In this document: positions 13,204 through 59,921 of the stretch, in pieces
How positions within the stretch are numbered: position 1 is the first letter of the stretch
Layout: each line of letters begins with the position of its first letter
Assembly (NCBI RefSeq): GCF_002214805.1
Contig: NZ_CP019914.1
Span: forward strand, 2,666,001 to 2,730,000
Origin: Brachyspira hampsonii
Lineage (GTDB): Bacteria; Spirochaetota; Brachyspiria; Brachyspirales; Brachyspiraceae
Reading direction: 5' to 3'
DNA length: 64,000 bases
The notes under the pieces: model-generated
What the model was told of the DNA's origin: nothing
The model's database searches: none
Seen by the model: only the letters and a program-made list of their open reading frames with translations
Position numbers and translations under genes: made by a program

Positions 13204-13221
13204 TCAAAAAATATTTTTAAC

Positions 13222-13259: not shown

Positions 13260-13278
13260 ATTGTAACTTTTATATTTA

Positions 13279-13569
13279 TTATAGATTTTCTATTTCTTGT
13301 ATACTTAATCCTGTTATTTTACTTATAATATTAATATCTATATTTTCTTTTTTCATATTTTTAGCTGTTAATATTTGATTTTCTTTAATACCTTCTTTAA
13401 TACCTTCTTCTTTAGCCTTCTTTATATCTAACTCCATACTCTTATTAAAGAAATATGTATCTACTTCTCGTTTTTTATATTTATCCATTACTGGACTATC
13501 ATTAACAAAAGTGAGGCATTTTTTTTCTACCTCTTCAAATATAGTATTTTCTTTCATTAAAATAGACAT
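13279..13569 (-). CDS. Predicted intragenic RpnS-like C-terminal protein (copy 1)
   Basis: In frame inside the rpn gene, ATG 13569 is preceded five bases upstream by AGGGGG (13575-13580), which pairs with the anti-Shine-Dalgarno using one G-U. It would give 96 residues beginning MSILMKEN and lacking the nuclease core. The second rpn copy has GGAGG and ATG at the homologous place. In E. coli, a short protein from an internal start of rpnA is known to block the nuclease. Expression here is inference from the ribosome sites. Confidence 0.6.
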   Translation of the reverse strand: MSILMKENTIFEEVEKKCLTFVNDSPVMDKYKKREVDTYFFNKSMELDIKKAKEEGIKEGIKENQILTAKNMKKENIDINIISKITGLSIQEIENL

Positions 13570-14184: not shown

Positions 14185-14244
14185 AATATTATTATACAAA
14201 AAATAATTATAAAAGTAAAGTTTATTAAAATTATTATATATAAT

Positions 14245-14280
14245 AAAAAGTGCATACATATATAATGCATACACTTTTTT
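14245..14280 (-). terminator. Palindromic hairpin H2 after ankyrin lipoprotein copy 1
   Basis: AGTGCATACATAT…ATGCATACACT palindrome with flanking A and T runs, eight bases past the ankyrin gene stop. Same family as H1, H3, H4 and H5. Confidence 0.75.
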
Positions 14281-14288
14281 AGTATTTA

Positions 14289-15962: not shown

Positions 15963-15994
15963 ATTTTTACCCTCTGTATGTATTGTTATTTTTT

Positions 15995-16023
15995 ATAATA
16001 AATTAAAATAACTAAAATTTCAA
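15995..16023 (-). promoter_or_regulatory. Module promoter before ankyrin lipoprotein copy 1
   Basis: Minus strand TTGAAA (16023-16018), 17-bp spacer, TATTAT (16000-15995). The same promoter recurs before the other three module lipoprotein genes. Confidence 0.65.
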
Positions 16024-16044
16024 TTAGAAAATATTTTTAACAAT

Positions 16045-16080
16045 AAAAAAACTGCATACATATATAATGCATGCACTTTT
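16045..16080 (-). terminator. Palindromic hairpin H3 after lipoprotein copy 2
   Basis: CTGCATACATAT…ATGCATGCACT palindrome with A and T runs, downstream of the lipoprotein gene ending at 16098. Same family as H1-H5. Confidence 0.75.
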
Positions 16081-16097
16081 ATTGAAACTATTAAAAA

Positions 16098-18074: not shown

Positions 18075-18106
18075 ATTGTACCCTCTGTATGTATTGTTGT
18101 TTTCGC

Positions 18107-18135
18107 ATTATAAATTAGAATAATTAAAATTTCAA
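18107..18135 (-). promoter_or_regulatory. Module promoter before lipoprotein copy 2
   Basis: Minus strand TTGAAA (18135-18130), 17-bp spacer, consensus TATAAT (18112-18107). It is the best match of the four related promoters. Confidence 0.7.
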
Positions 18136-18153
18136 TTGGAAATATTGTTACAA

Positions 18154-18196
18154 TAAAAAAGTGCATACATATAAAAAATATGCATGCACTTAAAAA
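18154..18196 (-). terminator. Palindromic hairpin H4 after rpn copy 2
   Basis: GTGCATACATAT…ATATGCATGCAC with an AAAAA insertion in the loop compared with H1-H3; flanked by A and T runs. It shares the loop type of H5. Confidence 0.7.
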
Positions 18197-18289
18197 ATTA
18201 TTCCATCTAATTATAATTTTTTTATTTCTTACATAGTTTATAAAAAACTTGTTCACTAACAATATCTATCAAGTGAACTTGATAGATGT

Positions 18290-18592
18290 TCACAAGTTTT
18301 TTATTTCTTCTATACTTAATCCTGTTATTTTGCTTATAATATTAATGTCTATATTTTCTTTTTTCATATTTTTAGCTGTTAATATTTGATTTTCTTTAAT
18401 ACCTTCTTCTTTTCCTTTTTTAATACCTTCTTCAATACCTAATCTTCTTTCTTCATCAAGCATTATTTGATTACCATATAAATAAGCCTCTTTATTCTCA
18501 TATTCCATCATCATCAATCTGCTTTTTACAAAATTATTATATTTTTTTTGTACTTCTTCCATTATAGGTTTTTCTTTTACTATTTCAGACAT
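18290..18592 (-). CDS. Predicted intragenic RpnS-like C-terminal protein (copy 2)
   Basis: In frame inside rpn copy 2, ATG 18592 lies five bases after a perfect GGAGG (18598-18602). The product would be 100 residues beginning MSEIVKEKPIMEEVQ, lacking the nuclease core. The position matches the internal start of copy 1 (MSILMKEN…IFEEVEKK). Such an internal product is known to inhibit the full-length enzyme in E. coli Rpn. Expression is predicted, not shown. Confidence 0.62.
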   Translation of the reverse strand: MSEIVKEKPIMEEVQKKYNNFVKSRLMMMEYENKEAYLYGNQIMLDEERRLGIEEGIKKGKEEGIKENQILTAKNMKKENIDINIISKITGLSIEEIKNL

Positions 18593-19174
18593 AGAAGCCT
18601 CCAAATTTTTGCTTGTAAACATTTTTAACCAACAATTTAAATCTTTAGTTAATATGTTTTTCTTAAACTTTTTTAATTCTATTATATGTATCTGCAAATG
18701 GTCTGTGAGAAGTTTTTTGTTATTCATCTCGTAAAGCATATAGCAGGAATGTATATTGTTTGTTTTGTCTAAATTGAAATTGAGTAAATTAATGCTTATT
18801 ACAGGTGTAAGTTCATCATATCTTTCTCCATGCTTTAATAATTTACTATAATTTGCTGCCCAATAATAAAGTATTCTTTCTGGAAACCTTGAATTACCTT
18901 GAAGCTGAATTTCTATAATAACAACTGAGCCATTCTGGGTAATACATTTTACATCGACTATAGTTTCTTTTAGATTTCTATTTTTCTTTAAATTAAATGG
19001 GGTTAATATTTCTACTGCTTTAAAAGTTTTCATTCTAGAATCAAGCATTATAGAATTAATAAAATCTAAAAGTATAGATTCGCTGCTTCCTTTGTCAGTA
19101 AAAAGGTATCGTATAAAATAATCGTTCAAAGGATTGAAATATTTTATTTTTTTTATATTTGTATTATTTTTCAT
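18290..19174 (-). CDS. Rpn-family PD-(D/E)XK nuclease (module copy 2)
   Basis: 294 residues. NDYFIRYLFTDKGS near the N-terminus, ETIVDVKCITQNG and VVIIEIQLQGNSRFPERILYYWAANY carry the PD-(D/E)XK residues. The middle third differs strongly from copy 1, but the last 40 residues (ENQILTAKNMKKENIDINI…) are nearly identical. Like copy 1 it has a strong internal ribosome site and ATG (18592). Rpn nucleases cut DNA without much specificity and were linked to recombination and phage defence. It is separated from the ankyrin gene by hairpin H5. Confidence 0.88.
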   Translation of the reverse strand: MKNNTNIKKIKYFNPLNDYFIRYLFTDKGSSESILLDFINSIMLDSRMKTFKAVEILTPFNLKKNRNLKETIVDVKCITQNGSVVIIEIQLQGNSRFPERILYYWAANYSKLLKHGERYDELTPVISINLLNFNLDKTNNIHSCYMLYEMNNKKLLTDHLQIHIIELKKFKKNILTKDLNCWLKMFTSKNLEASMSEIVKEKPIMEEVQKKYNNFVKSRLMMMEYENKEAYLYGNQIMLDEERRLGIEEGIKKGKEEGIKENQILTAKNMKKENIDINIISKITGLSIEEIKNL

Positions 19175-19227
19175 GAATATATTATACTAAAATAACTATA
19201 AATTGTCAAAATTTGAAAAATTGTGAA

Positions 19228-19268
19228 TAAAAAAAGTGCATACATATAAAAAATATGCATACACTTTG
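19228..19268 (-). terminator. Palindromic hairpin H5 after ankyrin lipoprotein copy 2
   Basis: GTGCATACATAT…ATATGCATACAC palindrome with an A-rich loop, downstream of the ankyrin gene ending at 19289. Fifth member of the hairpin family. Confidence 0.7.
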
Positions 19269-19288
19269 TATTTTATTGTTTTTTATAT

Positions 19289-20956
19289 TTATATAGTAAG
19301 ATAGTATTCTAAATTGTCAGGATTATTTAAATGATGAAGTGCTGCTTTGTCATCTTTTTCTATAACAATATCCATAGCTGTTTTTCCTTCTTTGTTTTTA
19401 ATGTTATAATCAGCACCCATATTTATAAGAACTCCTAACATACCATAACTTAAAATAAAATTTTGTACGGAAACTATTAATGGAGTATCTCCGTTATTAT
19501 TTTTTTTATTTACATCAGCACCATTTTTTATCAAATAATAACAAATATCTGATCCAAATTTCACTTTATCTACTAAATATGTTAAAGGAGTATCTCCTGT
19601 TGCTGAACATATAGCATTTAAATCCGGCTTCAAATCAATAATATCTTTAGCTAAACCAATATTACTATACTTCATTGCTATTATTAAAGGAGTATATCCA
19701 TATCCGTCTTCTAAATTTATATCAGCACCTTTCTCTACTAAAAATTTAACCATTTCTTTATCATTTCTAGCAGCAGCTAAGCCAAGAGGCGTAATCTTAT
19801 CATATTGTTTATTTAAATCAGTATCATCTTTTATAAGTTTTTCTAATGCTTTCATATCACCTTTAGATATAGCATTCATTAATTCATCATATCCGTCTAT
19901 ATTATTTGAATCTTCACTTAATAATAATTTTTCTATTTCATAATATTTGCCGTCTTGTACTAATTTTATAGCTTCTTCTTTAGTAGTATTAGTATTAAGA
20001 TTAAAAACATCATTATCTACTAATAATTTAGTTATATCATAATTATTATATGCATAAAGCATATAATCATCAGCTGAGTTTAAATTTGCTCCTTCATCAA
20101 TTAAAAATTTAGCCATTTCTACATAGCCGTTTTCAGCAGCTACTTTCAAAGGAGAATCAACCCAAAAACCGTCAAAAAATATCTGAGCATCTATATCTTG
20201 TCCTATAGATAATAAATATTTAACCATTTCTATATTATTTTCTCGTACTGCTTCTGGAATTAAAGTTTCTTTTGAATCTCCTCTTTTTACAAGAAGTTTA
20301 AGTATATCAAGATTGTTGTTGCCAATAGCAATATCTGTCAAATAAGTAGAATATTCATAACCATAATCTCTATTTTTATCAAGTCCTTTATCAATTAAGA
20401 TTTTAGTCATTTCAGGATTATTATTTCTAACAGCATAGTAAAGCATATCAAGGCCGCCTTCTGTTTCTGTTTCCATATCGTTTGCTCTGGCATTAACATC
20501 AGCACCTTCTTTTATAAGCTCTTTTGCTAAATCATTGTATCCGAATTGTACTGCCAAAAATAAAGGAGTAGAATCTTTATATATGTATTTATCACCAAAA
20601 TTTGTCGTTTCAGTAATTTTTCCTTCTAGTCCTTCCTCTGATATTAGTTTTGATATTTCGTATATTGGTGCTTTATATTTATGTTCATTAAGTATTTCAT
20701 CTATTTTTTTATATCCTGTAGGCATAGGGTCTAATTCTGTGCCTTGAATATATTCATTAGTATATTTAGTTGTATCAATGCTAATATTGATATTTGTATT
20801 ATTATTTTGATTTGTAGTTGTTGGATTAACATATACTTTATTAGTTTCTGTTTGATTAGTTTGTGTATTTTCTGCTATTTCTTTGTTTCCGCCTCCGCAT
20901 GAAATTATAGAGATCATTAAAACAAAAATAGAAATAATAGAAATAAAATTTTTCAT
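19289..20956 (-). CDS. Ankyrin-repeat lipoprotein (module copy 2)
   Basis: 555 residues, close paralogue of 14289-15962. Lipobox ISIISC, then a tether and about ten to twelve ankyrin repeats (ADVNARAND, NNNPEMTKILIDKGLD, NGYVEMAKFLIDEGANLN). The N-terminal 120 residues and repeats from about 350 to 460 are nearly identical to copy 1, while other repeats have drifted. GAGGG precedes ATG 20956. It is the first gene of the upstream module copy. Export and protein binding are likely; the target is unknown. Confidence 0.9.
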   Translation of the reverse strand: MKNFISIISIFVLMISIISCGGGNKEIAENTQTNQTETNKVYVNPTTTNQNNNTNINISIDTTKYTNEYIQGTELDPMPTGYKKIDEILNEHKYKAPIYEISKLISEEGLEGKITETTNFGDKYIYKDSTPLFLAVQFGYNDLAKELIKEGADVNARANDMETETEGGLDMLYYAVRNNNPEMTKILIDKGLDKNRDYGYEYSTYLTDIAIGNNNLDILKLLVKRGDSKETLIPEAVRENNIEMVKYLLSIGQDIDAQIFFDGFWVDSPLKVAAENGYVEMAKFLIDEGANLNSADDYMLYAYNNYDITKLLVDNDVFNLNTNTTKEEAIKLVQDGKYYEIEKLLLSEDSNNIDGYDELMNAISKGDMKALEKLIKDDTDLNKQYDKITPLGLAAARNDKEMVKFLVEKGADINLEDGYGYTPLIIAMKYSNIGLAKDIIDLKPDLNAICSATGDTPLTYLVDKVKFGSDICYYLIKNGADVNKKNNNGDTPLIVSVQNFILSYGMLGVLINMGADYNIKNKEGKTAMDIVIEKDDKAALHHLNNPDNLEYYLTI

Positions 20957-47774: not shown

Positions 47775-47920
47775 TAATATATTGATTTAATATCTGTTTT
47801 ATTATGTAATTTTCTATAAAATATAAAAATACCATAATAGTACAAATACTTATAATTGAAAGGTATAATTTTAGTAACTATTTAATATATTTAAATTAAT
47901 TTTTAAGGAGAGATAAAATT

Positions 47921-48328
47921 ATGGATGAAGATATAATCACTCAATTAACTAATGTGAATAATAAACTTAGCACATCTTTAAGCAAACTAAATTTTTCAAG
48001 TGATGCCTCGTTTATAGTTGGAAGTATTTCATCTGCTGTTACTACTATGAAAGAAATAGAGAGAGATATGCTGTTAATAGATAGAGAATTTCAGCATTTG
48101 ATGAAAAAAGCAGATGTTGATTTAGAAAAATTTAGACATAGTTTTGATTTGACTTCTAATATGCTTAATAATATTTCTAACAATTTAAATTTATTTACTC
48201 AGCAAGTGTTGAGTATACCTACAGATACAATAAATGAATCTGAAATAAAGCATAGAACAGAACTTTTAAATATGATTAATAATTTTAATTTGACAATCTC
48301 TCAAATGTTAATTAATTTATTAAAATAA
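47921..48328 (+). CDS. Unrecognised helical protein, partner of the following membrane protein
   Basis: 135 residues, no signal peptide, almost entirely helical with heptad-like Leu/Ile/Met (LTNVNNKLSTSLSKL, FDLTSNMLNNISNNLNLF). One Gly/Ser-rich stretch (SFIVGSISSAVTTM, about 35-48) could dip into a membrane. AAGGAGAGA precedes the ATG. A truncated paralogue lies at 51056-51220. The next gene begins 13 bp later. No family recognised; a coiled-coil adapter is my best description. Confidence 0.7.
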   Translation: MDEDIITQLTNVNNKLSTSLSKLNFSSDASFIVGSISSAVTTMKEIERDMLLIDREFQHLMKKADVDLEKFRHSFDLTSNMLNNISNNLNLFTQQVLSIPTDTINESEIKHRTELLNMINNFNLTISQMLINLLK

Positions 48329-48340
48329 TGGAATTAATAT

Positions 48341-50056
48341 ATGTATAATAAATTATTAAATGATGAAGAGTTCTTAAAGATAAAAAAGGATCTAGATGAT
48401 ATATTTGCAGCAATAGATAAGATAGCATCAGGCTGGATAGATATAGGAAATGCTATTTCAGGAATAGGCATAATGTCAGTTTCTTTTATAAATCCATTAT
48501 TAGGTGTTGGTGTAGCTGCAGCTAGTACAATTTTAATAAATATTAAAAAGAAAAAAGTATTAGAAGATAAGAAAAAAAATTTTTATGAGGCTTTGCCTAC
48601 ATTACAAAGTACGGCAAAAGCCAAAATGTCAGCTGTAGAGCAAAATATAAACCTTCTTAATAATAATAAAAAATTGACAGAACAAATAATGATTAATGAT
48701 TCTAAATTGCTATTATCAGAAAAGAATATACAAAATAAAGAACATTTAATTAATGGACTAGCCTTATCTTTTAAATCTTATTGCAGAGATTCTTATACTT
48801 TAAAATTATATCAATATGCTTTAGATACATTCAAAGCATGGCTTAATGAAGAATATTCAGCAGATTATGAATGTCCAAATATAGATGATAGTAATGCTAA
48901 GTGTACTATGGAGCTTTATAAAAATTCGGATTTTTATTCCGTAGCAACTAATAACCCAACCATAGGTACATTATTTATAGTAAATAATAATAATGATGAT
49001 GAGATAGATTTTATACCTAAAGTGGTAACAGAGAATGTTTATAAGTCATACGGAAATGATGATGTAATATTTAAAAATAGAAACAGTATTAATTTGATTT
49101 CTAGTAATTTATTTAATAAATATAAGGATTATAGAGAACATAATGTTTTAAAAAGTCTGAGTAATTATTTTAATAAAATGATAATAGTTATGCCTATAGT
49201 ATTTGCAATATCATTTTTAGTATCAATCTTAGTTGATTTTAATGCATATAGTATTGGTATAATTAAATTTATATTATTATCTATATTATCTTCTCTAATA
49301 ATAACTGGAATTACAGCATTAATATGGTTTATAAGTTATCATTATTTATTTAATATTAGATTTAAATTTTATACTACTAATTTAATAAAATCAGCTTTAT
49401 ATTTACTGTCAATGCTATTATTATTAATTGGTGTTCCTACAGTATATGGATATTTATATGCCAATAATTACAGACAAAATAATATTGAATATATTAATTT
49501 ATCAAGTAATGAAATTTCTAATTTGATAGAAAATAAAAAATTTAATGATGCATACGATAAAAATAATAATATGCATTTAAAATATATTTATCCTTTCGCA
49601 GATATTAATGAAGTTGCTGCATTAAAAAAAGATAAAAAAGAATTATATGATAATATGTCCACAAATTTTTTTAATGATTTTAAAAATACTTTGAATAATG
49701 AAATGAATTATTCTAATTATCAGTATGTATTTGAGGCTTATAATGATAGAAATAAATATTATAAAAAAATAGCAGATAAAAATTATAAAAAAGAAATAAA
49801 AGAATTTATTTCTGATATTGATAAAGAAATTGATAATAAAAGGCATGAATATCTGTTATCAGAAGTCGATATTGTAAATGATTTGATAAATACCAATAAA
49901 TCAAAAGCTATTGAATTAATAGATGGTATGCAGCATTTTTCTAAAGATAAATTCAATCTATCTGATGATAAAAAATTTATGATTTTTAATGATAATATTT
50001 CATATAAAGAATATTGGGGAAAAACAGAGAGAAGAATTATTATCAAAAATAAGTAA
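48341..50056 (+). CDS. Unrecognised polytopic membrane protein with glycine-rich N-terminal hairpin
   Basis: 571 residues. A hydrophobic, Gly/Ala/Ser-rich region at about 38-68 (IGNAISGIGIM, GVGVAAASTILI) is followed by coiled coil (about 80-130), a soluble region, four hydrophobic segments at about 280-375, and a Lys/Asp/Asn-rich C-terminal domain of about 190 residues. No family recognised. The arrangement, a membrane-inserting N-terminal hairpin plus a helical bundle and a paired small helical protein, resembles the 647-4213 proteins in style but not in sequence. Transcribed with 47921-48328 and closed by a terminator. Confidence 0.7.
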   Translation: MYNKLLNDEEFLKIKKDLDDIFAAIDKIASGWIDIGNAISGIGIMSVSFINPLLGVGVAAASTILINIKKKKVLEDKKKNFYEALPTLQSTAKAKMSAVEQNINLLNNNKKLTEQIMINDSKLLLSEKNIQNKEHLINGLALSFKSYCRDSYTLKLYQYALDTFKAWLNEEYSADYECPNIDDSNAKCTMELYKNSDFYSVATNNPTIGTLFIVNNNNDDEIDFIPKVVTENVYKSYGNDDVIFKNRNSINLISSNLFNKYKDYREHNVLKSLSNYFNKMIIVMPIVFAISFLVSILVDFNAYSIGIIKFILLSILSSLIITGITALIWFISYHYLFNIRFKFYTTNLIKSALYLLSMLLLLIGVPTVYGYLYANNYRQNNIEYINLSSNEISNLIENKKFNDAYDKNNNMHLKYIYPFADINEVAALKKDKKELYDNMSTNFFNDFKNTLNNEMNYSNYQYVFEAYNDRNKYYKKIADKNYKKEIKEFISDIDKEIDNKRHEYLLSEVDIVNDLINTNKSKAIELIDGMQHFSKDKFNLSDDKKFMIFNDNISYKEYWGKTERRIIIKNK

Positions 50057-50082
50057 TTAAATTTTTTTAATGTATAAATAAA

Positions 50083-50130
50083 AAACTAGTTAATAATAGT
50101 TTTCTGAATTATTAACTAGTTTAAATTTTT
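50083..50130 (+). terminator. Terminator after 571-residue gene, left copy of a flanking repeat
   Basis: Perfect 15-bp stem (50083-50097 with 50108-50122), 10-base loop, then AAATTTTT. The hairpin and about 40 bases after it recur at 53584-53660. Confidence 0.8.
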
Positions 50131-50204
50131 AATCACTTACCGTGAGTATCAATAAATAAAATACTTAATAAGTGCTTTTTATTTTTATATAAAGATATAA
50201 AATA

Positions 50205-50232
50205 TTGACAAATGTTAATTATATTATATACT
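50205..50232 (+). promoter_or_regulatory. Promoter of the zinc-ribbon/YkvA operon
   Basis: TTGACA (50205-50210), 16-bp spacer, TATACT (50227-50232). It gives a leader of about 190 bases before the gene at 50432. Confidence 0.6.
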
Positions 50233-50431
50233 TAATTAATGAAAATACTAATATAAGGTTTATTTAATTATGTTGTTTAATCGCATCGCATCGCATTTAA
50301 TGTCTTATTAAACTTTATAAACCCATTCTATCAAATAACTATCAAAAATTTATTTCAATCTTCGGAAATACTTAAATATATTAATGCCATCTCTTTCGGC
50401 ATTGCAATAAAAAATAAAATAGGAGAATACT
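50233..50431 (+). promoter_or_regulatory. Long leader with (TCGCA)3 and a small hairpin
   Basis: After the promoter there is an ATG at 50270 followed by three tandem TCGCA units (about 50281-50297), in a short ORF of 13 codons ending at 50311. At about 50381-50402 AATGCC and GGCATT form a 6-bp stem. A regulatory role is possible; the leader peptide has only a distant AAGG site. Confidence 0.4.
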
Positions 50432-50683
50432 ATGTCAAATTTTTACTGTGAATATTGCGGCTCTAAGTTTTCTACAGCAGCTTCTTTATTATCTCAAAAC
50501 TGTCCAAGACATCCAAATGGTATTAATAAAGGAAAGCATAAACTTTATGAGGGCAGCGAAAAATCTAGTTACATTTGTAAATATTGCGGAAGTTCATTAA
50601 CTTCTTTAAGTTCATTAACTTCTCAGAATTGTCCAAGGCATCCTAATGGAATTAACAATGGAAAACATACACCAGCATTATAA
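50432..50683 (+). CDS. Tandem zinc-ribbon protein
   Basis: 83 residues made of two similar units of about 38 residues. Each has CEYCGS/CKYCGS, then SSL(T/L)SQNCPRHPNGIN and GKH, so each unit offers Cys-x2-Cys plus Cys and His ligands for one zinc. The ending GKHTPAL is like that of many small bacterial zinc-ribbon proteins. AGGAG precedes the ATG. First gene of a run with a YkvA-type membrane protein and the truncated helical paralogue. Function unknown; nucleic acid or protein binding is possible. Confidence 0.82.
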   Translation: MSNFYCEYCGSKFSTAASLLSQNCPRHPNGINKGKHKLYEGSEKSSYICKYCGSSLTSLSSLTSQNCPRHPNGINNGKHTPAL

Positions 50684-50703
50684 TAAAATAATAGGAGTTT
50701 TTT

Positions 50704-51033
50704 ATGAGCGATTACAATAACTATGATGATAATTCCAACAAACCTGCACAATCTGGAATAGCACCTTGGATACCATTAATATTAGCATTAATATATACGG
50801 TTTCACCTGTAGATTTAGTGCCTGATGTCATACCAATAGTAGGCTGGTTTGAGGATGCATTATTACTGATTGTAGGCGGACTTAACGGCATACAGAATGG
50901 AGTTTTAGAAGCTAATAGTTCATTAAGAGGGATAGTAAAATTTTTAAAATGGGGACTTTTAATAGTTGGTGGTATAGGAGTTATTATAGTAGTTCTTCTA
51001 GCAGTATTAGTTTTTAAAGTAGCAACAAAATAA
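50704..51033 (+). CDS. YkvA/DUF1232 membrane protein
   Basis: 109 residues. APWIPLILALIYTVSPVDLVPDVIPIVGWFEDA in the first half is the DUF1232 (YkvA) signature: a short helix, SPVDLVPD, and a second helix. A C-terminal hydrophobic segment follows (about 82-105). AGGAG before ATG 50704. The family is membrane-associated and of unknown function. It is 21 bp after the zinc-ribbon gene. Confidence 0.88.
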   Translation: MSDYNNYDDNSNKPAQSGIAPWIPLILALIYTVSPVDLVPDVIPIVGWFEDALLLIVGGLNGIQNGVLEANSSLRGIVKFLKWGLLIVGGIGVIIVVLLAVLVFKVATK

Positions 51034-51055
51034 TTTTTTATGGAGTAATAATATT

Positions 51056-51220
51056 ATGAATGAAAATACATCTAATGATATCAATAATCAATTAACTAGT
51101 GTAAATAATAAACTTAGCAGATCTTTAAATGAATTAAATAATTCACAGCAAGCAGGCGGAATAGTGGGAACTATGTATTCAGTTGATTGGTTTTCTGATG
51201 ATATATTTTTAGTAAAATAA
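51056..51220 (+). CDS. Truncated paralogue of the 47921-48328 protein
   Basis: 54 residues. The first 42 residues (NDINNQLTSVNNKLSRSLNELN…GIVGTMYS) match the first 45 of the 135-residue helical protein (ITQLTNVNNKLSTSLSKLN…FIVGSISS). The match then ends and twelve unrelated residues (DWFSDDIFLVK) precede the stop. GGAG lies 11 bases before the ATG. It may be a remnant or a short functional homologue; its presence suggests an old duplication of the pair 47921-50056. Confidence 0.65.
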   Translation: MNENTSNDINNQLTSVNNKLSRSLNELNNSQQAGGIVGTMYSVDWFSDDIFLVK

Positions 51221-51246
51221 AAAATTAATTTAAGGAAATTTTTAAA

Positions 51247-52263
51247 ATGGGATTATTAGGTAATTTTGGAAAAGTAGTAGCAAAAGTAGTAGTAAAAGAA
51301 ACTGTTAAAAATTTAACATATAAAGCAGCAAATGCTAATGATAAATTGAATGAAAATGCTAAAGAGTATAATGTTAAATTTGAACTTTATACTAGAGGAG
51401 GAGTAAATAATTATTATAGATGGGAGTCAGATACTAAAAATATTAAAGCCAATTCAGAAGAAAATGTTTTGGAGAGATTAGAAAGAGCTTACGGACGGGT
51501 AAGAAATGTACAAATATTATCTGTTCAAGATATAGATAAAGATGAAAATTATGAAGATGAAAATCCATTGCCAGAAGATTATGATGAGTTATTAAAACAA
51601 GGAAAAGCGTATTATAATAATAAAGAATATGAAGAAGCCATAAAGTATTTTCAGAAAGCTGATGAATTAAACCATGATGATGAAGTTAATTTGTATTGGC
51701 TAGGATGTTCTTATAGTAGAAATGGAGAATATGATGAAGCTATAAAATTTTTAATCAAGGCTGTAGAGTTAAATCCTGATAATGAAACTAATTGGAGTTG
51801 GTTAGGTGCTTCTTATAATCTAAATGGTAATTATGAAGAAGCTATACGATGTTTGAATAAAGCGACAGAGTTAAATCCTGACAATGATTGGAATTTGGCT
51901 TGGCTTGGAAATTCTTATAATAAAAATTGTCAATTTAAAGAAGCAAAAGATATTTATAATAAACTACTTGAAAATAATAAGGATAATAAAGAAATTACAG
52001 AAAAACTTAATTTTATAAAAGATAGCGGAAATATATCCAAAAAGAGCTGGAAGGTTGCTTTAATTTTAGCTGTAATACTTCCTTCGTTCCATAGGTTTTA
52101 TGCTGGTAAAATATTTACTGGCATAATATATTTAATAATTTTAATAGTTTCTTTTAATACACCAAATTATTATGTATTTGGATTTTTTTATCTTATAGAT
52201 ATATTTTTCTTGTTAATATTAAAATTTAAAGATAAAAATGGTAAATATATAATACCATATTAA
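51247..52263 (+). CDS. TPR protein with C-terminal TM2 domain
   Basis: 338 residues. The N-terminal 100 residues are unfamiliar and basic. Three to four TPR units run from about 115 to 245 (QGKAYYNNKEYEEAIKYFQKA and NGNYEEAIRCLNKATELNPDN types). The last 70 residues have two hydrophobic helices with LPSFHRFYAGKIFTGIIYLI, the TM2 domain signature. TM2 domains anchor proteins at membranes. It may recruit partners to the membrane; partners unknown. AAGG before ATG 51247. Confidence 0.85.
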   Translation: MGLLGNFGKVVAKVVVKETVKNLTYKAANANDKLNENAKEYNVKFELYTRGGVNNYYRWESDTKNIKANSEENVLERLERAYGRVRNVQILSVQDIDKDENYEDENPLPEDYDELLKQGKAYYNNKEYEEAIKYFQKADELNHDDEVNLYWLGCSYSRNGEYDEAIKFLIKAVELNPDNETNWSWLGASYNLNGNYEEAIRCLNKATELNPDNDWNLAWLGNSYNKNCQFKEAKDIYNKLLENNKDNKEITEKLNFIKDSGNISKKSWKVALILAVILPSFHRFYAGKIFTGIIYLIILIVSFNTPNYYVFGFFYLIDIFFLLILKFKDKNGKYIIPY

Positions 52264-52290
52264 AATAATAACTATATTTAGGAGCAAAAA

Positions 52291-52740
52291 ATGAAAAAAA
52301 TTATTTTATTATTTTTATTAATATCAAGTTTCTTATTTACTGAAGAAATATCTTATATAATACTTGATTCTTATATTAAAAATGAGGATCTTGTTGATCA
52401 AGTCTATTCTTATTTAGAGAAAAAAACTATTGAAGAATTACTTGAAATAAAAGATGATTATGATGGTAGTAATCTTTTATTTTCAGCTGTAGCGTGGAAT
52501 CTATTAAAACTTGCAGAAATGTTGTTAAAAAAAGGATTTGATCCTAACTACAAAAATAATAATGGAGATACTGCGTTATTTGAATGTGCTTCCATAGAAT
52601 GTATTATTTTATTATACCATTATAATGCTGATATAAATATAAGAAATAAAGAAGGAAAAACTATATTAGGTAAATATATAGAATGGAATGTTGACAAAGA
52701 TGAAATAAGAAAACTTAAAGAATTAGGTGCTAAAGAATAG
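52291..52740 (+). CDS. Exported ankyrin-repeat protein
   Basis: 149 residues. Signal peptide MKKIILLFLLISSFLFTEE without a lipobox, then two to three ankyrin repeats (LLKLAEMLLKKGFDPNYKN, NGDTALFECASIECIILLYHYNADINI). AGGAG before the ATG. It is co-directional with the TPR-TM2 gene and two small exported proteins, with 12 and 30 bp gaps. Possible immunity or binding role in the periplasm; not shown. Confidence 0.8.
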   Translation: MKKIILLFLLISSFLFTEEISYIILDSYIKNEDLVDQVYSYLEKKTIEELLEIKDDYDGSNLLFSAVAWNLLKLAEMLLKKGFDPNYKNNNGDTALFECASIECIILLYHYNADINIRNKEGKTILGKYIEWNVDKDEIRKLKELGAKE

Positions 52741-52751
52741 AGGATTAACAG

Positions 52752-53180
52752 ATGAAAAAAATTTTATTATTTTTGTTGCTAATTTTTAATTCTACTATTT
52801 TTGGACAAGAAAATATTCCTAAATATTCTTTTAATTATTCAGATAAAAAGAAAGAATATTATGAAGAAATTGATAATCCTGTATTATTTACAATAGGTTC
52901 TTTTATAATTAACGCGAAATCAAAAATGTATTATAGTTATTATATTCATATTTTTATGGATCCATTGAGACCTCATGATTTTAGAGAATCAGATATTGAA
53001 GCTTATGAAGAATGTATAAAATATACTGAATTTTGTTTAAAAAACATTAGTGTGGAAATAGAATTAGGTACTACATTTTATTATATCAAAAATATTATGA
53101 TGGATGAATTTGGGATTACTATTTATATAGAATTAGAAGACATAATTGATTATCCATATTCAGAAGATTTTGATATATAA
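52752..53180 (+). CDS. Small exported protein, unrecognised
   Basis: 142 residues. Signal peptide MKKILLFLLLIFNSTIFG, cleaved probably after Gly-Gln. The mature part is acidic and Tyr-rich with two Cys in ECIKYTEFC. No family recognised. It lies between two other small exported proteins in one transcript. Confidence 0.65.
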   Translation: MKKILLFLLLIFNSTIFGQENIPKYSFNYSDKKKEYYEEIDNPVLFTIGSFIINAKSKMYYSYYIHIFMDPLRPHDFRESDIEAYEECIKYTEFCLKNISVEIELGTTFYYIKNIMMDEFGITIYIELEDIIDYPYSEDFDI

Positions 53181-53209
53181 AGTAGAAAATTAATAATTAA
53201 GGATAAAAA

Positions 53210-53557
53210 ATGAAAAAACTAATTTTATTTTTAGTAATGTATATAAATATTTTCGCCATTGATATTAAATATCCTACAGGTTATACCCAATATTCTATAG
53301 ATCTAACAAAATATAATAGTGCTAATTCTTTTATAGAAGATTTTTCAAAATTATTTAATGGAGCTATTAATAACAGTCTTTTTGGGTTTTACATAAAAAT
53401 TGAATATATTGATAGTTTTTATAAAGAATTTAGTGAATGGTGTGATACTTTTGTATTTATAGAATTATCTAAAAAATATTGTAAAAAATTTAATGTTAGA
53501 ATGACATACGTATATATTAATGATAATGATATTAGAATATATTTTGTAAAAAATTAA
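53210..53557 (+). CDS. Small exported protein, unrecognised
   Basis: 115 residues. Signal peptide MKKLILFLVMYINIFA, then a small alpha/beta domain with one Cys pair region (FSEWCDTF, KKYCKKF). AAGGA precedes ATG 53210. Last gene before the right copy of the flanking repeat. Function unknown. Confidence 0.62.
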   Translation: MKKLILFLVMYINIFAIDIKYPTGYTQYSIDLTKYNSANSFIEDFSKLFNGAINNSLFGFYIKIEYIDSFYKEFSEWCDTFVFIELSKKYCKKFNVRMTYVYINDNDIRIYFVKN

Positions 53558-53583
53558 AAATTTTATATAGTCTATTTTTAAAT

Positions 53584-53660
53584 ATAGTTAATAATCAACA
53601 GAATTATTAACTATGTTTAAATTTTTAATCTATTTACAGTGTGTATTATAATAAATAAAA
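53584..53660 (+). terminator. Terminator and right copy of the flanking repeat
   Basis: Perfect 12-bp stem (53584-53595 with 53603-53614) followed by TTTAAATTTTT. The hairpin arms and the following 40 bases closely match 50090-50160, the tail of the 571-residue gene. Confidence 0.75.
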
Positions 53661-53661
53661 A

Positions 53662-56600
53662 TTAATCTCCAAAAACGCTTTTTACTATACTGTAAATTGA
53701 AGAAGCAAATCTTTTTTCTACTTTTAGAGGATTAATTAGAGTTTCAATACCGTCATTTATCTCGCAAAACTCTATATCTCCAAACTCAATATCTTCATTA
53801 GCGTCCATTCCAAAATACATATAGTCAAATGAGATGTGAACAGCAATATTGAGATAAGTATCTTTTAATATGTACTCGCAGAAACTTCCGCCGTCCATAG
53901 TCTCGCCTCTAGTCATGTCGTATTTATTTGCTAATGACATCAATACGCCTGCTTTTATTTTTTTGGAATTAAGAGAAGTAATTTTATCTTCGCTTATATC
54001 TTTTTCTTTAATATCAGAATATTTAAAATCAAGCTGTTCTATAGGCTGCGATATCTCATAGTCTGATAATTGGTTTTTCCATTTTGCTATAGTGTCAGAG
54101 CTTAATTCTGAAGGGTGTACTAAAGTTATTAAAGCATTTTCTTTGATAGTGTACTCTTCTTCATCAACAGTATTAAAAGTGCCGTCTTCCATATATCTGA
54201 AACTTTCTATTAAATTGTTATTCTCATCATAAACACCCCATATAAGTTTTAATGCAAATAGATTCATTATAGGGTTTTCAACAAATACAGTTTTGAAATT
54301 ATCATAAGTCCATTTTCTACCGTTTAATAATACTTTCTGAAGTCTTATTTTCTGACTCTGTATTAAAGTTTTTATCTCTTTTTTGAGAGCAGAGCATTCT
54401 TTTTTGGCATTATCTGCTTCTGTTTTGTCATCTTTGCTGTTAGGAGCTGGGAGCGATTTTATTATTTTTTGTTTGTCATTATCTGTTATTGTGAGTTCAA
54501 GATCATTGTTTATTGATAATGTAAATGTTCTTTTTGCCTCTCCTCCATAGCTTAAAACTTTTTCGCCTTTTCTGTCAAATCCGAAATTAGGTATTATTCT
54601 GTCTGAAAGCTCATCGGCTGTCATATCAAGTAAGTAGGCAGCATTTTCCATAGTTTCTATTGCCACTTCTTTTATTTTAGCAGTAGGTGCTTTTCTTGTG
54701 AGGCTGTCTACTAATATTAATGCATAGCTTTTTCCGTTTAATGCGATACATTTTACAATAAATGCACCCATAACAGTGCGTGAACCTTTAGCAAACTCTT
54801 TTATAAGAGGATAAACTTTATCTATCTTTGAATTATCAGAATATAAAAGATAAGGTATTAAAATATTTTTTTTGTTAGCTTCGTAATTAGAATCTTTCCA
54901 ATAAATATACAACATTTCTAAAGCATTAGTAAATGAAGAGGTATCAAGAATCTCAGTAAGCATATCGCAGTCTTTTAATCTGGCAGGCTCAATTAAGTTC
55001 ATATATTCCATAATAATATATTTAAATATTCTCTCATCAGCCAATTTTCCATTATTGTATAAAACTTTTGTCAAATGAACATCATCTAAGAATTTTATAT
55101 TTTTTTCATAATTTGTATTGTAGTAGGTATCTATAAACTCCAAAACCTCATCAATACTTTTGAAATTATTGCCGTATTTTTTAAGATTCCAATTCTTAAT
55201 AATATTTTTTAATGCCCCTTTAAGTTCTGATGATCTTACCTTCTCTGACATCTTTTCGACATATTCTCTTGTAATAGCTTCATTATCAGAAATAACTTTG
55301 ATACAATGTCTTTTTACTTCGGCTCTCTTTGTATTTTCAAGAACTGTATAAATCAAATGATAATTTTCATAATTATATTTATTATACAAAGTCTTTAATA
55401 TATCTAATGCTGTATTTTTATTTGATGCTATATTATCTTTTATAAACTTATCATCATTTAATATATTTACCACTTCATCAAAATAGCTTTTAAACAATTC
55501 ATCTTTTACGCTGTTTATAATAACATTATTATTTTCATCTACGCATCTAAGCTCTTTGTATAATGTAGGAAGGCATTTGCCGCCATAGTCATAATAATAA
55601 TTTGAAAAATCTCCTGCATAATCAAAATAGTATGAAAGCAGAATTTCTTTTAATGTAATATTCAATTCTTTATTATTTAATAAACTATCAATAACTTCTT
55701 TTAGAGTTTTCTTTCCTATAGATGCCTGCACTTCTATATATTTTCTTACTGCTAACTGAATTGGTAAGTATTTAAAAATATCAATAGCAAACTTTTTATA
55801 GTTTTTCATTTCTGCACTATCATAATTAAATAGAGAGTATAAATAATAAAGTTCTGTCTCAATACTATATTCAGGAAGGCTATCCCATCTGTTGCTGTAT
55901 AGATTGTATGTATTTTTTTTGTCTGTATAATATTCAATAAGCGTATCAAAGAGTTTATTTTTATCTTTATCAAATATTTCTTCTATTTTTTCTGTAGTGG
56001 TAAATGCTGGTCTTTTATTATATCTATCTGAATTATCTTCTGTAAATTTATTAACTATAGTTTGAAATACGGGTATAGACTTTTTTAAATTATTTGTGTC
56101 TATTTTATTATCATTATTCTCTAGTAAAACACCGCTAAGCACTATAAATATTCTTTTGTTTCTATCATTTTTTAAATCATTTCCTACTAAATTATAAACT
56201 TTATAAAAATCTTCTCTATAGTTTAAATATAAATCTCTTGCTCCATAAATGAACTCATAACGAAAATAATCTTCAAAATGTTTTGCTATAAATATAAAAG
56301 AGTTTGGATAATTTATTGCTTTGAGGAATTTATCTTTGGCTTTATAAGGATTGCTGTAATCTAATAATCTTAAATACTGTCCAATTTCAATATTTATATC
56401 AATAATATATTCTTCATTGTTATTTAATACTTCTATAAATTTATTTTTTATAGCCTCGTTTTTATCTAAAAGAGCAGCAATTACATTTAAAGTGTCATAA
56501 AGATTTGGAAAAATATCAAATGATTTTATAGCCGCATTTATATATTTTTCATCGCATTCTTTATTATTTTTTATAACAGAACATATTGCAATCAATGGTA

Positions 56601-57096
56601 TTACAGCATCTCTTCCCATTTTATGCAGTATTTTTTTATTGTCATTGTTATTAATAATATCAATATATTTATCTGTATATTCTTCAAACTCTTTACTGAA
56701 GTATTTATTAAAATCTTCAAAAACTGTATATATTAATTCTTCACCATTTAGAGTTCTTACATTCTCTTTATGTCTTTTCTCATATCCGTAAGCCATATAT
56801 CTGAGTGACTTTTCAAAATCTTTATTGACTATATAATCAAGAATAACATATCTAGTTCCGCCTTCTCCTTCTTTATCGTTTCCGTAAAGAAGTATCTTAA
56901 CAAAATGTTCATATCTTTTCTTTAATGCTTCATCTTCTATAGTAAAATAATCTTTCAAAAACTCATCTCTATAATAAAAATAATCATAAGAATTCTTCCT
57001 TATTTTGCTGAAATCATTTGCAGATTCGCATTTCTTTATATCATCTTCTATAGGCGAGTTTTTATAGTACATTTCAAGTTTTTCTTCTAAGTTCAT
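53662..57096 (-). CDS. Large DUF4132-domain protein
   Basis: About 1144 residues, start at ATG 57096 with AGAGG upstream. Residues up to about 880 are predicted helical-repeat (HEAT-like) with many Leu, Lys, Asn and Tyr. Near 890-1090 lie RLQKVLLNGRKWTYDNFKTVF, NPIMNLFALKLIWGVYD and LITLVHPSELSSDTIAKW, which match DUF4132 (once called MolR-related). The role of the family is unknown; it often occurs with WGR-type or AAA proteins, none of which is here. No signal peptide, so cytoplasmic. It is convergent with the small exported protein genes. Confidence 0.85.
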   Translation of the reverse strand: MNLEEKLEMYYKNSPIEDDIKKCESANDFSKIRKNSYDYFYYRDEFLKDYFTIEDEALKKRYEHFVKILLYGNDKEGEGGTRYVILDYIVNKDFEKSLRYMAYGYEKRHKENVRTLNGEELIYTVFEDFNKYFSKEFEEYTDKYIDIINNNDNKKILHKMGRDAVIPLIAICSVIKNNKECDEKYINAAIKSFDIFPNLYDTLNVIAALLDKNEAIKNKFIEVLNNNEEYIIDINIEIGQYLRLLDYSNPYKAKDKFLKAINYPNSFIFIAKHFEDYFRYEFIYGARDLYLNYREDFYKVYNLVGNDLKNDRNKRIFIVLSGVLLENNDNKIDTNNLKKSIPVFQTIVNKFTEDNSDRYNKRPAFTTTEKIEEIFDKDKNKLFDTLIEYYTDKKNTYNLYSNRWDSLPEYSIETELYYLYSLFNYDSAEMKNYKKFAIDIFKYLPIQLAVRKYIEVQASIGKKTLKEVIDSLLNNKELNITLKEILLSYYFDYAGDFSNYYYDYGGKCLPTLYKELRCVDENNNVIINSVKDELFKSYFDEVVNILNDDKFIKDNIASNKNTALDILKTLYNKYNYENYHLIYTVLENTKRAEVKRHCIKVISDNEAITREYVEKMSEKVRSSELKGALKNIIKNWNLKKYGNNFKSIDEVLEFIDTYYNTNYEKNIKFLDDVHLTKVLYNNGKLADERIFKYIIMEYMNLIEPARLKDCDMLTEILDTSSFTNALEMLYIYWKDSNYEANKKNILIPYLLYSDNSKIDKVYPLIKEFAKGSRTVMGAFIVKCIALNGKSYALILVDSLTRKAPTAKIKEVAIETMENAAYLLDMTADELSDRIIPNFGFDRKGEKVLSYGGEAKRTFTLSINNDLELTITDNDKQKIIKSLPAPNSKDDKTEADNAKKECSALKKEIKTLIQSQKIRLQKVLLNGRKWTYDNFKTVFVENPIMNLFALKLIWGVYDENNNLIESFRYMEDGTFNTVDEEEYTIKENALITLVHPSELSSDTIAKWKNQLSDYEISQPIEQLDFKYSDIKEKDISEDKITSLNSKKIKAGVLMSLANKYDMTRGETMDGGSFCEYILKDTYLNIAVHISFDYMYFGMDANEDIEFGDIEFCEINDGIETLINPLKVEKRFASSIYSIVKSVFGD

Positions 57097-57186
57097 AATT
57101 TTACCTCTGAAATCTATATTAATATATAGTATACACATTTTTATTTATTTGTCAATATATAACTATAAAAGATTAATTATAATAAA

Positions 57187-57215
57187 AAAGCCCATGCAAT
57201 AAATGCATAGGCTTT
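57187..57215 (-). terminator. Terminator of the 35-residue gene
   Basis: On the minus strand AAAGCCTATGCA and TGCATGGGCTTT form a 12-bp stem (one G-T), 5-base loop, then TTTTTTATT. It closes the transcript of the small gene at 57240-57347. Confidence 0.85.
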
Positions 57216-57239
57216 AAGGAGAAACAAATAATATAATTC

Positions 57240-57347
57240 TTATATGTATTTACTTATTATTTCATAATATTCACTTATTAATGAGCCGTAGTCTTCATCA
57301 CTAAGAAAAGTACATTCGTTATTTAAAATATTAAATAATTTAGTCAT
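57240..57347 (-). CDS. Small protein of 35 residues with strong ribosome site
   Basis: MTKLFNILNNECTF… to …EIISKYI, 35 residues, acidic, without a hydrophobic helix. AAAGGAGGT five bases before ATG 57347 is a perfect Shine-Dalgarno, and a terminator starts 25 bp after the stop. The spacing of ribosome site, frame and terminator makes it a real candidate although it is too short for most gene finders. No family known to me. Confidence 0.55.
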   Translation of the reverse strand: MTKLFNILNNECTFLSDEDYGSLISEYYEIISKYI

Positions 57348-57646
57348 AATATACCTCCTTTTACCCATTAATTGACTCTAATATTTTATGTGAAATAATT
57401 ACTAAATATTGTAGTTAATTATCACAATCATCTATTAATAATATAATAAATTGTATGATAAATACAATAACTTTTTAATATATTATTAAAAAAATATCAT
57501 AAAACATAATTGATTAGTATAGTTTATTTAAAAAAGAGGAAATAAAATATTAATATGCAATCATTATAAATTATTAAGTTTTATATAAAAAAGCAATATA
57601 CTTTATAATATGTATATTGCTTTATATTTAAATTTTTATAAATTAA
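57348..57646. other. AT-rich intergenic region
   Basis: Lies between the 35-residue gene and the Vsp-like gene, both leftward. At 57587-57625 AAAGCAATATACTTTATAATATGTATATTGCTTT is an imperfect hairpin with T run that probably terminates the Vsp-like transcript. I see no other feature. Confidence 0.5.
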
Positions 57647-58732
57647 TTAGTACCGCCAAATGCCCCAGATGTCCAATCCTCCGCCGAATGCATTATATAT
57701 ATTAAAGTCGGCACTTTTTTTCATTATTCCCTGACCTTCAGCATAGCCCGTCAAACCGAATGTAAAATTTTCCACTAAAGTAACTCGAATTTCTCCTTCA
57801 ACTCCATAATGCAAATTATATTCACCATCCACTTTATATATTTTACCCTCAAACATAAGTCTAGGCATTACATAAGTATATATTGCCCCCAATTTAGCTT
57901 CAAATTTAGCCGGCATTAATATATAGAAATATATGCTGTCAGTAGATCTTCCTCCTACATCATCATATAAATAATTAAGTGTGGCATCTTCAGCATATCC
58001 TGCATCTATAGTAGCCCATCTAGCACCTATACCATAATAGAAAGCTAATTTTACAGGAAGACTTATTTGAACAGGATAATTATCAAATCTTGTAAGCATT
58101 ATACTGCCGTATAAAGATCCTCCTAATACCATAGGAGCTATTTTTGTTCCGCCTACATCATTCGTAACTGTAGAAAGCTGTATACCGTAATGGAGCGACA
58201 TTGTAAATTCATCTAATAATCCGCCTCTAAACATAAATGAGAATTTAGGCGTTGTACTTACAGAAAGTTTTCCTCCATAATATGAAGAATCTCCTACAGA
58301 TACAGAAACAGGTAATGATAATCGGTATTTTTCTGTAGCAAAACCAAAAGAAAATGAATGGCTATGTGCAACTGTACTATTTTTATCATTAAGATTATTA
58401 TACAAACTAAATTGATATCCGAATCCAAATATACCGTAGCTTAATCCTACAAAACCTTTAGGCAAAAAAGCTAATTTTCTGCTGCCGTCAGTGTTTGTAT
58501 GACTATTATCGACTATATGTGATAAATCTAATATTGCTACTCCTAACTTAAAAGGGGTATTATGATTCATAAGCGGAGCAAAATCATATATGGTGCTGAT
58601 TCTATCTGATCCGAATCTTGTTGAGGTTACTCCTTCTATTAAATTATGCATATTATCTTTATCTACTATATCATCTATAGCAAAAGCAAAAGAGTTTAAT
58701 ATTAATAGCATCATAAATATTATTTTTTTCAT
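57647..58732 (-). CDS. Outer-membrane beta-barrel protein resembling Brachyspira variable surface proteins
   Basis: About 361 residues. A signal peptide (MKKIIFMMLLILNSFAFA, no lipobox) is followed by IDDIVDKDN. The rest alternates hydrophobic and Gly/Ser/Tyr-rich strands, as in a beta-barrel, and ends in aromatic WGIWRY, as outer-membrane proteins do. The mass, about 39-40 kDa, fits the 39-kDa Vsp family of Brachyspira hyodysenteriae. I base the Vsp link on size, architecture and my memory of the family, so it is moderate. Start at 58732 has GGAG. Confidence 0.65.
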   Translation of the reverse strand: MKKIIFMMLLILNSFAFAIDDIVDKDNMHNLIEGVTSTRFGSDRISTIYDFAPLMNHNTPFKLGVAILDLSHIVDNSHTNTDGSRKLAFLPKGFVGLSYGIFGFGYQFSLYNNLNDKNSTVAHSHSFSFGFATEKYRLSLPVSVSVGDSSYYGGKLSVSTTPKFSFMFRGGLLDEFTMSLHYGIQLSTVTNDVGGTKIAPMVLGGSLYGSIMLTRFDNYPVQISLPVKLAFYYGIGARWATIDAGYAEDATLNYLYDDVGGRSTDSIYFYILMPAKFEAKLGAIYTYVMPRLMFEGKIYKVDGEYNLHYGVEGEIRVTLVENFTFGLTGYAEGQGIMKKSADFNIYNAFGGGLDIWGIWRY

Positions 58733-58922
58733 TTTTTCTCCACTTATCATTATACTATAATACAAAACAGATATTATCTAATAATGTAAATAATTTAATC
58801 GTCGTAATAGTTTATAGTATAAACTCTATTTTTTCAAGTGCATACTTTATTTATATTTTATATAAGCTTAAGAGTAAATTAAAAGGTATTTTCTTCCGAT
58901 AAATTCATATACGGAATTAAAA

Positions 58923-59831
58923 ATGATAAAAGATTTTTTTTATTTTATAGTTATTATACTAACTAAAACTATAATAGATTTATTCAGATCATTCGGAAGC
59001 ATTATAATATTCGGATTTATTTTATATGTGCTTTCTTCTATTACTAGGCGAATATTTGCTAAAACATTAGGCTCTAAAACAGAAGTTTATATTACAGGCT
59101 GGATAGGTACTCCTATACATGAGCTTTCACATGCCTTATTTTGTTTATTATTCAAACATAAAATTAATGATATTAAATTATTCAATACGAAATCAGATAC
59201 TATAGGTTATGTTCTTCATAGTTATGATTCAAGAAGCTGGTATCAGCAAATGGGTAATTTTTTTATAGGGGTAGGGCCGATTATTATCGGTACTTTGATA
59301 GTTTATTTATTATTTATTTTATTAGCTCCTGAATTAAAAAATAATATTTTTGAAATTCCTATTATAAAATATAAACAAGTATTTAATTCTGATATATTAT
59401 CAATATTTTACTATACAATATCAAATATCTTTGTATATACTTATAATATTTTTATAAATATTATAAAAAATGTGGTAGAGTATTCTGCTTTCAAAAATAT
59501 TACTTTTTGGATATTTTTATATTTATCAATAGCAATAGCTTCTCATATGGAGTTAAGCCCAGCAGATATTTCGCATGCTTCAAAAGGTATTATAGTGATA
59601 TTTGCTTTATCATTAATACTAAATACAATATTTATTATAATGAAAGTATTTTTTAAATTTGATATTCCTATTTTTATAAATCATTTCTTTAATAGAATTT
59701 TAGAAACATATAATATGCTATTAATATTTTCGGCTATAATATCATTATTTAATTTCTTGATAACTTATATAATTTTAACGCCAATTAATTTAATAAAAAA
59801 CGGCGGATTGATTAATCCATTTACAAGCTGA
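58923..59831 (+). CDS. Membrane metallopeptidase-like protein (HELSH motif)
   Basis: 302 residues with about six hydrophobic segments. The sequence WIGTPIHELSHALFCLLF at about 57-74 places an HExxH zinc motif inside the first membrane pair, as in M50 intramembrane peptidases. A second conserved-looking site, HMELSPADISHASKG, is at about 203-217 and may provide the third ligand (Asp). Possible roles are intramembrane cleavage or a related non-peptidase function. No start problem: ATG 58923 is the first Met, ribosome site weak. Confidence 0.72.
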   Translation: MIKDFFYFIVIILTKTIIDLFRSFGSIIIFGFILYVLSSITRRIFAKTLGSKTEVYITGWIGTPIHELSHALFCLLFKHKINDIKLFNTKSDTIGYVLHSYDSRSWYQQMGNFFIGVGPIIIGTLIVYLLFILLAPELKNNIFEIPIIKYKQVFNSDILSIFYYTISNIFVYTYNIFINIIKNVVEYSAFKNITFWIFLYLSIAIASHMELSPADISHASKGIIVIFALSLILNTIFIIMKVFFKFDIPIFINHFFNRILETYNMLLIFSAIISLFNFLITYIILTPINLIKNGGLINPFTS

Positions 59832-59921
59832 TGACTTATTATGTCATTTATTACTTTTTTAAAAATAAAAATAATGAAGTTTAGATTTTATAAGAATTTT
59901 AAGAAAAATAATATTATTTAA

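Follow-up and report, generated by a model that had tools for sequence, protein, structure and literature searches.

A strain-variable gene site beside a DUF4132 gene in Brachyspira hampsonii, between tails that look like degenerate copies of a dispersed palindromic repeat

Here, we propose an origin for a gene-bearing segment of Brachyspira hampsonii that lies between two copies of one 3' tail. The window, meaning the whole 64,000-nt stretch analysed (assembly GCF_002214805.1, contig NZ_CP019914.1; G000:C1:2666001-2730000), belongs to a 3.19-Mb genome, and in it the tail at 50070-50160 recurs on the same strand at 53572-53660, the two matches being separated by 3418 bp (50161-53578). The stretch between the tails is a strain-variable gene site. 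In the account that we favour, to which we give about six chances in ten, the tails would be degenerate copies of P, a dispersed repeat of the genus, the P copy behind a DUF4132 gene would be the fixed edge of the variable site, and a diverged gene pair would have been inserted while the resident pair was cut and replaced. This draws on a one-tail empty state in a relative, the pattern of divergence among the genes, the P family itself, and gene turnover past a conserved tail.

The segment and its borders hold the following features (window coordinates; dS is synonymous divergence, relative to G003, another genome of the genus; aa, amino acids):

47921-48328, plus strand: 135-aa gene, first of an intact diverged pair (dS 0.40)
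48341-50056, plus strand: 571-aa gene, second of the intact diverged pair (dS 0.55)
50070-50160, plus strand: tail 1, an apparently worn P copy of the hairpin subtype, with the left arm CGCACG lost and the right arm CGTGAG
50119-50134, plus strand: exact 16-mer GTTTAAATTTTTAATC, copy 1
50196-50415, plus strand: orthologue of the G003 nifS-YkvA intergenic region, with a promoter-like TTGACA-16-TATACT at 50205-50232 (11/12)
50280-50296, plus strand: pentanucleotide repeat ATCGC, 3.4 copies
50432-50683, plus strand: 83-aa protein with two CxxC motifs; its zinc-finger/ribbon-like matches are all under Pfam cut-offs
50704-51033, plus strand: YkvA-like (DUF1232) gene, vertical orthologue of the G003 gene (dS 0.16)
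51056-51220, plus strand: 54-aa stub, in which 51056-51172 corresponds to the start of the resident 139-aa gene (100% aa identity)
51247-52263, plus strand: TPR-TM2 protein, cargo
52291-52740, plus strand: ankyrin protein, cargo, with an N-terminal signal-like segment seen by eye
52752-53180, plus strand: 142-aa exported-looking protein, cargo, no family, signal by eye
53210-53557, plus strand: 115-aa exported-looking protein, cargo, no family, signal by eye
53572-53660, plus strand: tail 2, an apparently worn P copy of the hairpin subtype, with right arm CAGTGTG, 3 nt past the DUF4132 stop codon
53615-53630, plus strand: exact 16-mer GTTTAAATTTTTAATC, copy 2
53662-57138, minus strand: 1158-aa DUF4132 protein, forming the conserved edge of the hotspot

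The first-pass annotation had listed the genes between the tails correctly, as zinc-ribbon-like, YkvA, truncated paralogue, TPR-TM2, ankyrin and two small exported-looking proteins. Its claim that the terminator region after the 571-aa gene recurs is likewise confirmed. In a search of the genome with 50060-50175 as query, tail 2 is matched at E = 1.5e-11 (81% over query positions 28-102, 75 nt) and a third copy lies 44 kb off (G000:C1:2760024-2760112), making three matches in total at E <= 0.001. The 16-mer common to both tails was found in none of 100 shuffles of the window, and a hairpin-plus-tail pattern occurs at three places in the genome, with no match for a control pattern. Across the genus, the tail is present in 17 of 19 Brachyspira genomes at E <= 0.001 with 1-4 matches per genome, counts in which some matches are one place on the opposite strand and several are weak (e.g. 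G017). Short matches in the distant genomes G025 and G029 at E of about 1e-4 were taken as chance. A phage origin was rejected, the tail being unmatched in 50,697 phage records and the 571-aa protein having no relative among viral contigs.

The relative G003 has the order nifS, YkvA, a 139-aa gene, a 572-aa gene, one tail and the DUF4132 gene, with no cargo. The window aligns to it as two blocks, 47893-50162 and 53552-59832, and since both run into the single G003 tail, window positions 50163-53551 fall outside this alignment. Parts of the interval are nevertheless resident in kind: 50196-50415 matches the G003 gap between nifS and YkvA, and 50675-51174, comprising YkvA and codons 1 to 39 or 40 of the 139-aa gene, shares 94.8% identity with G003. 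Nothing of the resident pair is left between about 51174 and tail 2, a stretch now occupied by the TPR-TM2, ankyrin and two exported-looking genes; the remainder of the stub after 51172 does not align with the 139-aa gene. A second copy of the pair was once present here, as had been supposed, and the stub is its 5' end.

Divergence separates the two copies. Five backbone genes have a dS of 0.14, 0.20, 0.23, 0.19 and 0.21 to G003, and the stub has 0.04 (on only 23 synonymous sites), whereas the intact upstream pair is about 2-3 times as diverged as the backbone at synonymous sites. We take the downstream remnant to be the resident copy because its dS is backbone-like and that of the intact pair is 0.40 and 0.55. 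Judged from these sequences, YkvA and the 54-aa stub are vertical copies of the G003 operon, and the intact 135-aa and 571-aa pair with tail 1 is apparently an older or foreign copy placed upstream. The tandem duplication that the first-pass annotation thought simplest is not borne out in its recent form: recent copies should be equally near the relative's single copy, and we find 0.04-0.16 on one side and 0.40-0.55 on the other.

A tandem duplication of the YkvA-pair-tail unit could instead predate the split from G003, with G003 losing one copy and the present genome eroding the other. Such an event would likewise yield a high dS, and it agrees with the YkvA-pair-tail order of G003, with the stub and second tail seen here, and with a -35-like ATAARATATTGACAAA that occurs twice, at 47738 on the nifS side and at 50197 after tail 1, a pattern that tandem copying could produce. 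YkvA, however, is single at the locus, and several losses are needed because only 2 of the 13 Brachyspira genomes searched gave a match to the 571-aa family. We regard an old duplication as unlikely. G003 also holds a second, broken and distant copy of the 571-aa protein.

The variable site is best seen from the DUF4132 side. The tail stands 3-15 nt after the DUF4132 stop codon in 12 of 13 loci holding open reading frames (ORFs) of the DUF4132 group, the exception being G012, whose ORFs are shorter and have no tail within 200 bp. Because these 13 loci had been found through the tail, the DUF4132 gene itself was also searched: an orthologue at >= 85% identity is present in 8 of 12 Brachyspira genomes, and all eight have the tail. 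Past the tail, the first gene of at least 80 aa is of nine kinds in 12 loci (in G015 it is a doubtful 89-aa ORF). One family, c3, is the gene beyond the tail in G009, G004 and G013, and in G003 it adjoins another tail about 50 kb away; a gene grouped by blastp with the TPR-TM2 gene also lies beyond the tail in G011. The cargo thus varies while the tail stays, G003 having one tail and no cargo, which supports the earlier suggestion of an insertion hotspot.

Perfect arms, CGCACG and CGTGCG, are present in many of the tails of other genomes, and these define P as CGCACG-N67-CGTGCG, an 80-bp near-palindromic, dispersed, intergenic repeat of the genus Brachyspira. The pattern CGCACGN{62,72}CGTGCG has 118 copies in the genome studied here and 35, 29, 132, 91, 143, 0, 52, 51, 95, 2, 145 and 35 in G001 to G012 respectively, with no control match in any of these 13 genomes; the window itself has no perfect-arm copy. 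In a species collection, a stricter pattern matched 36 stretches, all from Brachyspira. Going by pattern counts in seven genomes outside the genus, P may be present beyond it: G019 has 14 (control 11), G020 has 9 (control 1) and the five others have none. The first-pass annotation had named a common dispersed repeat as the finding that would overturn its reading, and this came out divided: the tail belongs to a family of 118 perfect copies, but its hairpin subtype was found three times only.

A model of P draws on 93 copies set in a common orientation, including three of the tail subtype. Its consensus structure is the 6-bp outer stem only, and the arms are invariant in it because the copies were chosen for perfect arms. 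In the genome studied here the model has at least 150 matches, many places being listed twice because P is near-palindromic. With default filters it finds 7 of 17 known tails in 12 sources at E < 0.001; with filters off it finds 9 of 13 tail loci at that level (34-56 bits), including the third copy in the present genome, or 7 of 11, with one more at 0.03, when tails of the training set are excluded. Since orthologous and related tails do match the model, we assign the window tails to P, of which they look like degenerate copies.

Among loci of the present genome and G003 that had been selected because they contain P, 77 of 80 arrays or solo copies are intergenic, with no overlap with an ORF of at least 80 aa, and P is rarer between divergent genes (9 of 76 classified) than background gaps are (62 of 263). 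Orientation is unrelated to the genes: after gene 3' ends 27 solo copies point the same way and 26 the opposite way, and before 5' ends the numbers are 15 and 14. Searches at Rfam gathering cut-offs in five sources returned one tRNA and nothing at P or at its partner module (see below). In the literature searched on Brachyspira repeats, integrons and mobile elements, which took in few subscription papers, no description of a P-like repeat was found, nor is one given in the accessible portions of PMC3532143 and PMC3163572. One possible counterpart within the genus is an inverted repeat beside tva(A) of B. hyodysenteriae, reported in PMC6018095.

A rival reading takes the tails to be conserved two-way terminators only, kept for their function and unrelated to how the cargo came. 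Both carry hairpins with T runs on both strands, and on both strands they fold better than shuffled sequence (z -3.1 to -3.3; 0-2 of 200 shuffles equally good). Covariation in these hairpins is small: a single pair shows compensation (C-G to G-C, seen in 6 of 21 tails), which is weak against shuffles, and the number of pairs changed on both sides is no higher than in shuffles. A terminator function is likely, and it would agree with intergenic copies that are rare between divergent genes and with breakpoints that are not enriched over intergenic DNA (below). As the whole explanation we think it unlikely: each window tail aligns on its outer side with the G003 tail, and the extra DNA starts and stops there; arrays of P change in length and one P copy is chimeric; and the stems are AT-rich and do not appear in the list of a terminator scan.

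Elsewhere in the genome P alternates with a second module, Q, a 265-bp inverted repeat, to give P(QP)n arrays with a step of about 345 bp. Among 73 Q matches of at least 150 bp, P flanks 43 on both sides, 25 on one side and 5 on neither, and the P copies around Q point the same way in 36 of the 43 pairs. The one Q that was folded gives a long hairpin, and both arm pairs are visible in a consensus of 43 copies. A PepSY-like gene lies within Q in L080 and L081 (the L080 copy matches PF11396), and this gene-bearing Q-P-Q-P unit stands at G000:C1:1408519-1409955 and 1634630-1636064 with different flanks, the two sharing 1437 bp at 96.5%. In another array, L079, DUF2262/DUF7021 paralogues sit between successive P copies. 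The Q pattern also matches one viral contig of 57.8 kb (L169:6330-6345). Arrays of P-type arms with a step of about 233 bp lie beside the DUF4132 locus in G007 and G015 (L046:11380-12625 and L044:10261-11035).

These arrays can differ between relatives. Starting from the present genome, 15 P places could be paired through both flanks with a single G003 stretch, at least one P lying in between; six of them differ in P number, and two of the six hold other DNA in the gap; a seventh difference is visible from the G003 side, and the long array L079/L084 is rearranged. In one pair (L090/L088), compared by eye, the solo P of G003 joins the left half of P1 to the right half of P2 of the present genome's pair, a chimera of the kind that homologous recombination leaves. 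In another (L075/L088), the solo P of G003 equals P1 of a P-Q-P-Q-P array (96%) and continues into the sequence after P3, joined at CGTGCGTT; this case is also compatible with the addition of units at a P edge.

The latter case bears on whether P is a structure-specific recombination site and P-ended gene units are cassettes, moved as in an integron by another enzyme. Units can end at CGTGCGTT, as where P1 was kept whole and Q-P units added on its right, and the gene-bearing Q-P-Q-P unit at two loci and the paralogues between successive P copies of L079 point the same way. This is nonetheless highly improbable to us. No integron integrase was above cut-off in the 13 Brachyspira genomes, none of 111 P copies has both R boxes of an attC site, orientation is unrelated to that of the genes, there is no recombinase among 20 proteins scanned between or beside P, and one solo P is an internal chimera of the homologous-recombination type. 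On another reading, P and Q would together be an undescribed mobile system of Brachyspira, in which an unrecognised enzyme acting on the folded repeat moves gene-carrying units that end at CGTGCGTT and so builds strain-specific sites, which we consider very unlikely.

We return to the favoured account, in which homologous recombination between repeats is the likeliest mechanism. With the P copy behind the DUF4132 gene as the fixed edge of the site, a self-contained unit (promoter-like region, 135-aa gene, 571-aa gene and tail 1) would have entered between nifS and the YkvA operon already in place. The resident pair, of the 139-aa plus 572-aa type, would have been truncated near codon 40, with the TPR-TM2, ankyrin and exported genes taking the place of everything from there to tail 2. 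The joints may stem from homologous recombination between P copies or other short homologies. The Brachyspira gene transfer agent (GTA) packs 7.5-kb pieces of the genome, according to the accessible parts of PMC3163572 and PMC9662315, and the incoming DNA perhaps arrived by this route: ordinary recombination could take in a fragment that carries P at one end and any stretch of local homology at the opposite one. The hairpins would end transcription for the genes on both sides.

Several results weigh against this account. Neither window tail matches the P model at E <= 1 with filters off, and the G003 tail reaches 0.45. Neither the upstream unit's left joint nor the point at which the stub is cut falls in P, and no donor of the diverged 135-aa and 571-aa pair was found. 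Nine of the 15 paired P places keep the same P number. Breakpoints relative to G003 lie near P in 23 of 71 cases, where random positions give 6.7 and random intergenic positions 25.5; enrichment at P, seen only against the former, was dropped as support, and because random intergenic positions are at least as close to P as the breakpoints are, we claim recombination at P for individual cases and not as a general law. Several of the 20 proteins between or beside P are of ordinary types (trans-2-enoyl-CoA reductase, SMC, GH4, phage terminase), so a location between two P copies is in itself nothing unusual.

The repetitive extragenic palindromes (REP) of enterobacteria and their bacterial interspersed mosaic elements (BIME) are intergenic palindromic units of about 20-40 bp, with more than 100 copies, that are rare between divergent genes and form mosaic arrays. 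P resembles them in being intergenic (77 of 80), present in more than 100 copies, rare between divergent genes, arrayed with another module as P(QP)n and chimeric in one copy; it differs in its 80-bp length and in alternating with a full-length inverted repeat of 265 bp. By analogy, P appears to work most like BIME repeats, unusual in length and partner module. A REP system driven by REP-associated tyrosine transposases (RAYTs) was rejected: PF01797 (Y1) was found in 0 of 9 Brachyspira genomes, and 5 of 14 control genomes were positive. Miniature inverted-repeat transposable elements (MITEs) and BOX-type elements are modular repeats with which Q can be compared. Q has terminal inverted repeats and, as in those elements, can hold a gene (PepSY-like) in the loop of a 265-bp inverted repeat, but unlike them it adjoins P, on one side or both, in 68 of 73 matches. 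No parent transposase was identified in searches covering PF01797, PF00589 and the 20 proteins between or beside P.

The chromosomal integrons of Treponema, as far as the accessible text of PMC3607928 describes them, share with P the inverted-repeat sites between gene units and the strain-specific cargo. As a candidate system the integron was rejected. TIGR02249 was above cut-off in 0 of 13 Brachyspira genomes, with weaker matches in all 13 and in 14 control genomes, and the present genome has six tyrosine recombinase matches. R boxes occurred singly among the 111 perfect-arm P copies (GTTRRRY in 27, RYYYAAC in 11, both in 0), and the 27 to 26 split after gene 3' ends departs from the integron orientation rule. 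In the part of PMC3607928 (2013) available, Treponema is the only spirochaete clade found with integrons. As a separate observation that contrasts with that statement, integron integrases that score 375 and 335 bits, past the TIGR02249 cut-off, are present at G020:C16:286828-287766 and G019:C109:30463-31230 (L097, L098), in genomes of the same order as Brachyspira and another family.

A high-copy, two-module repeat for which no description was found would offer a handle on the reshuffling of accessory genes in Brachyspira, a genus that includes pig and poultry pathogens. It also allows a test of whether an intergenic hairpin serves as portable homology for gene exchange in a GTA-bearing genus.

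Shuffled sequence has as many promoter-like sites as the region itself (61.8 against 62), and for this reason promoters were inferred from position and from the matching G003 stretch. The ATCGC repeat, between the promoter-like site and the YkvA operon, has 10.4 copies in G003 (L032:7190-7241) and 3.4 here, and is a possible phase-variable leader. The 83-aa protein is absent from the corresponding place in G003. A defence-system reading was set aside, PADLOC having returned weak TPR and ankyrin matches only. DUF4132-like proteins form a large paralogous family, with 13 matches at E <= 1e-20 in this genome and up to 17 in relatives. On the minus strand at window positions 11197-20956, a three-gene unit (about 660 aa, about 300-330 aa and an ankyrin protein of about 555 aa) occurs twice in tandem, judged by eye from the translations.

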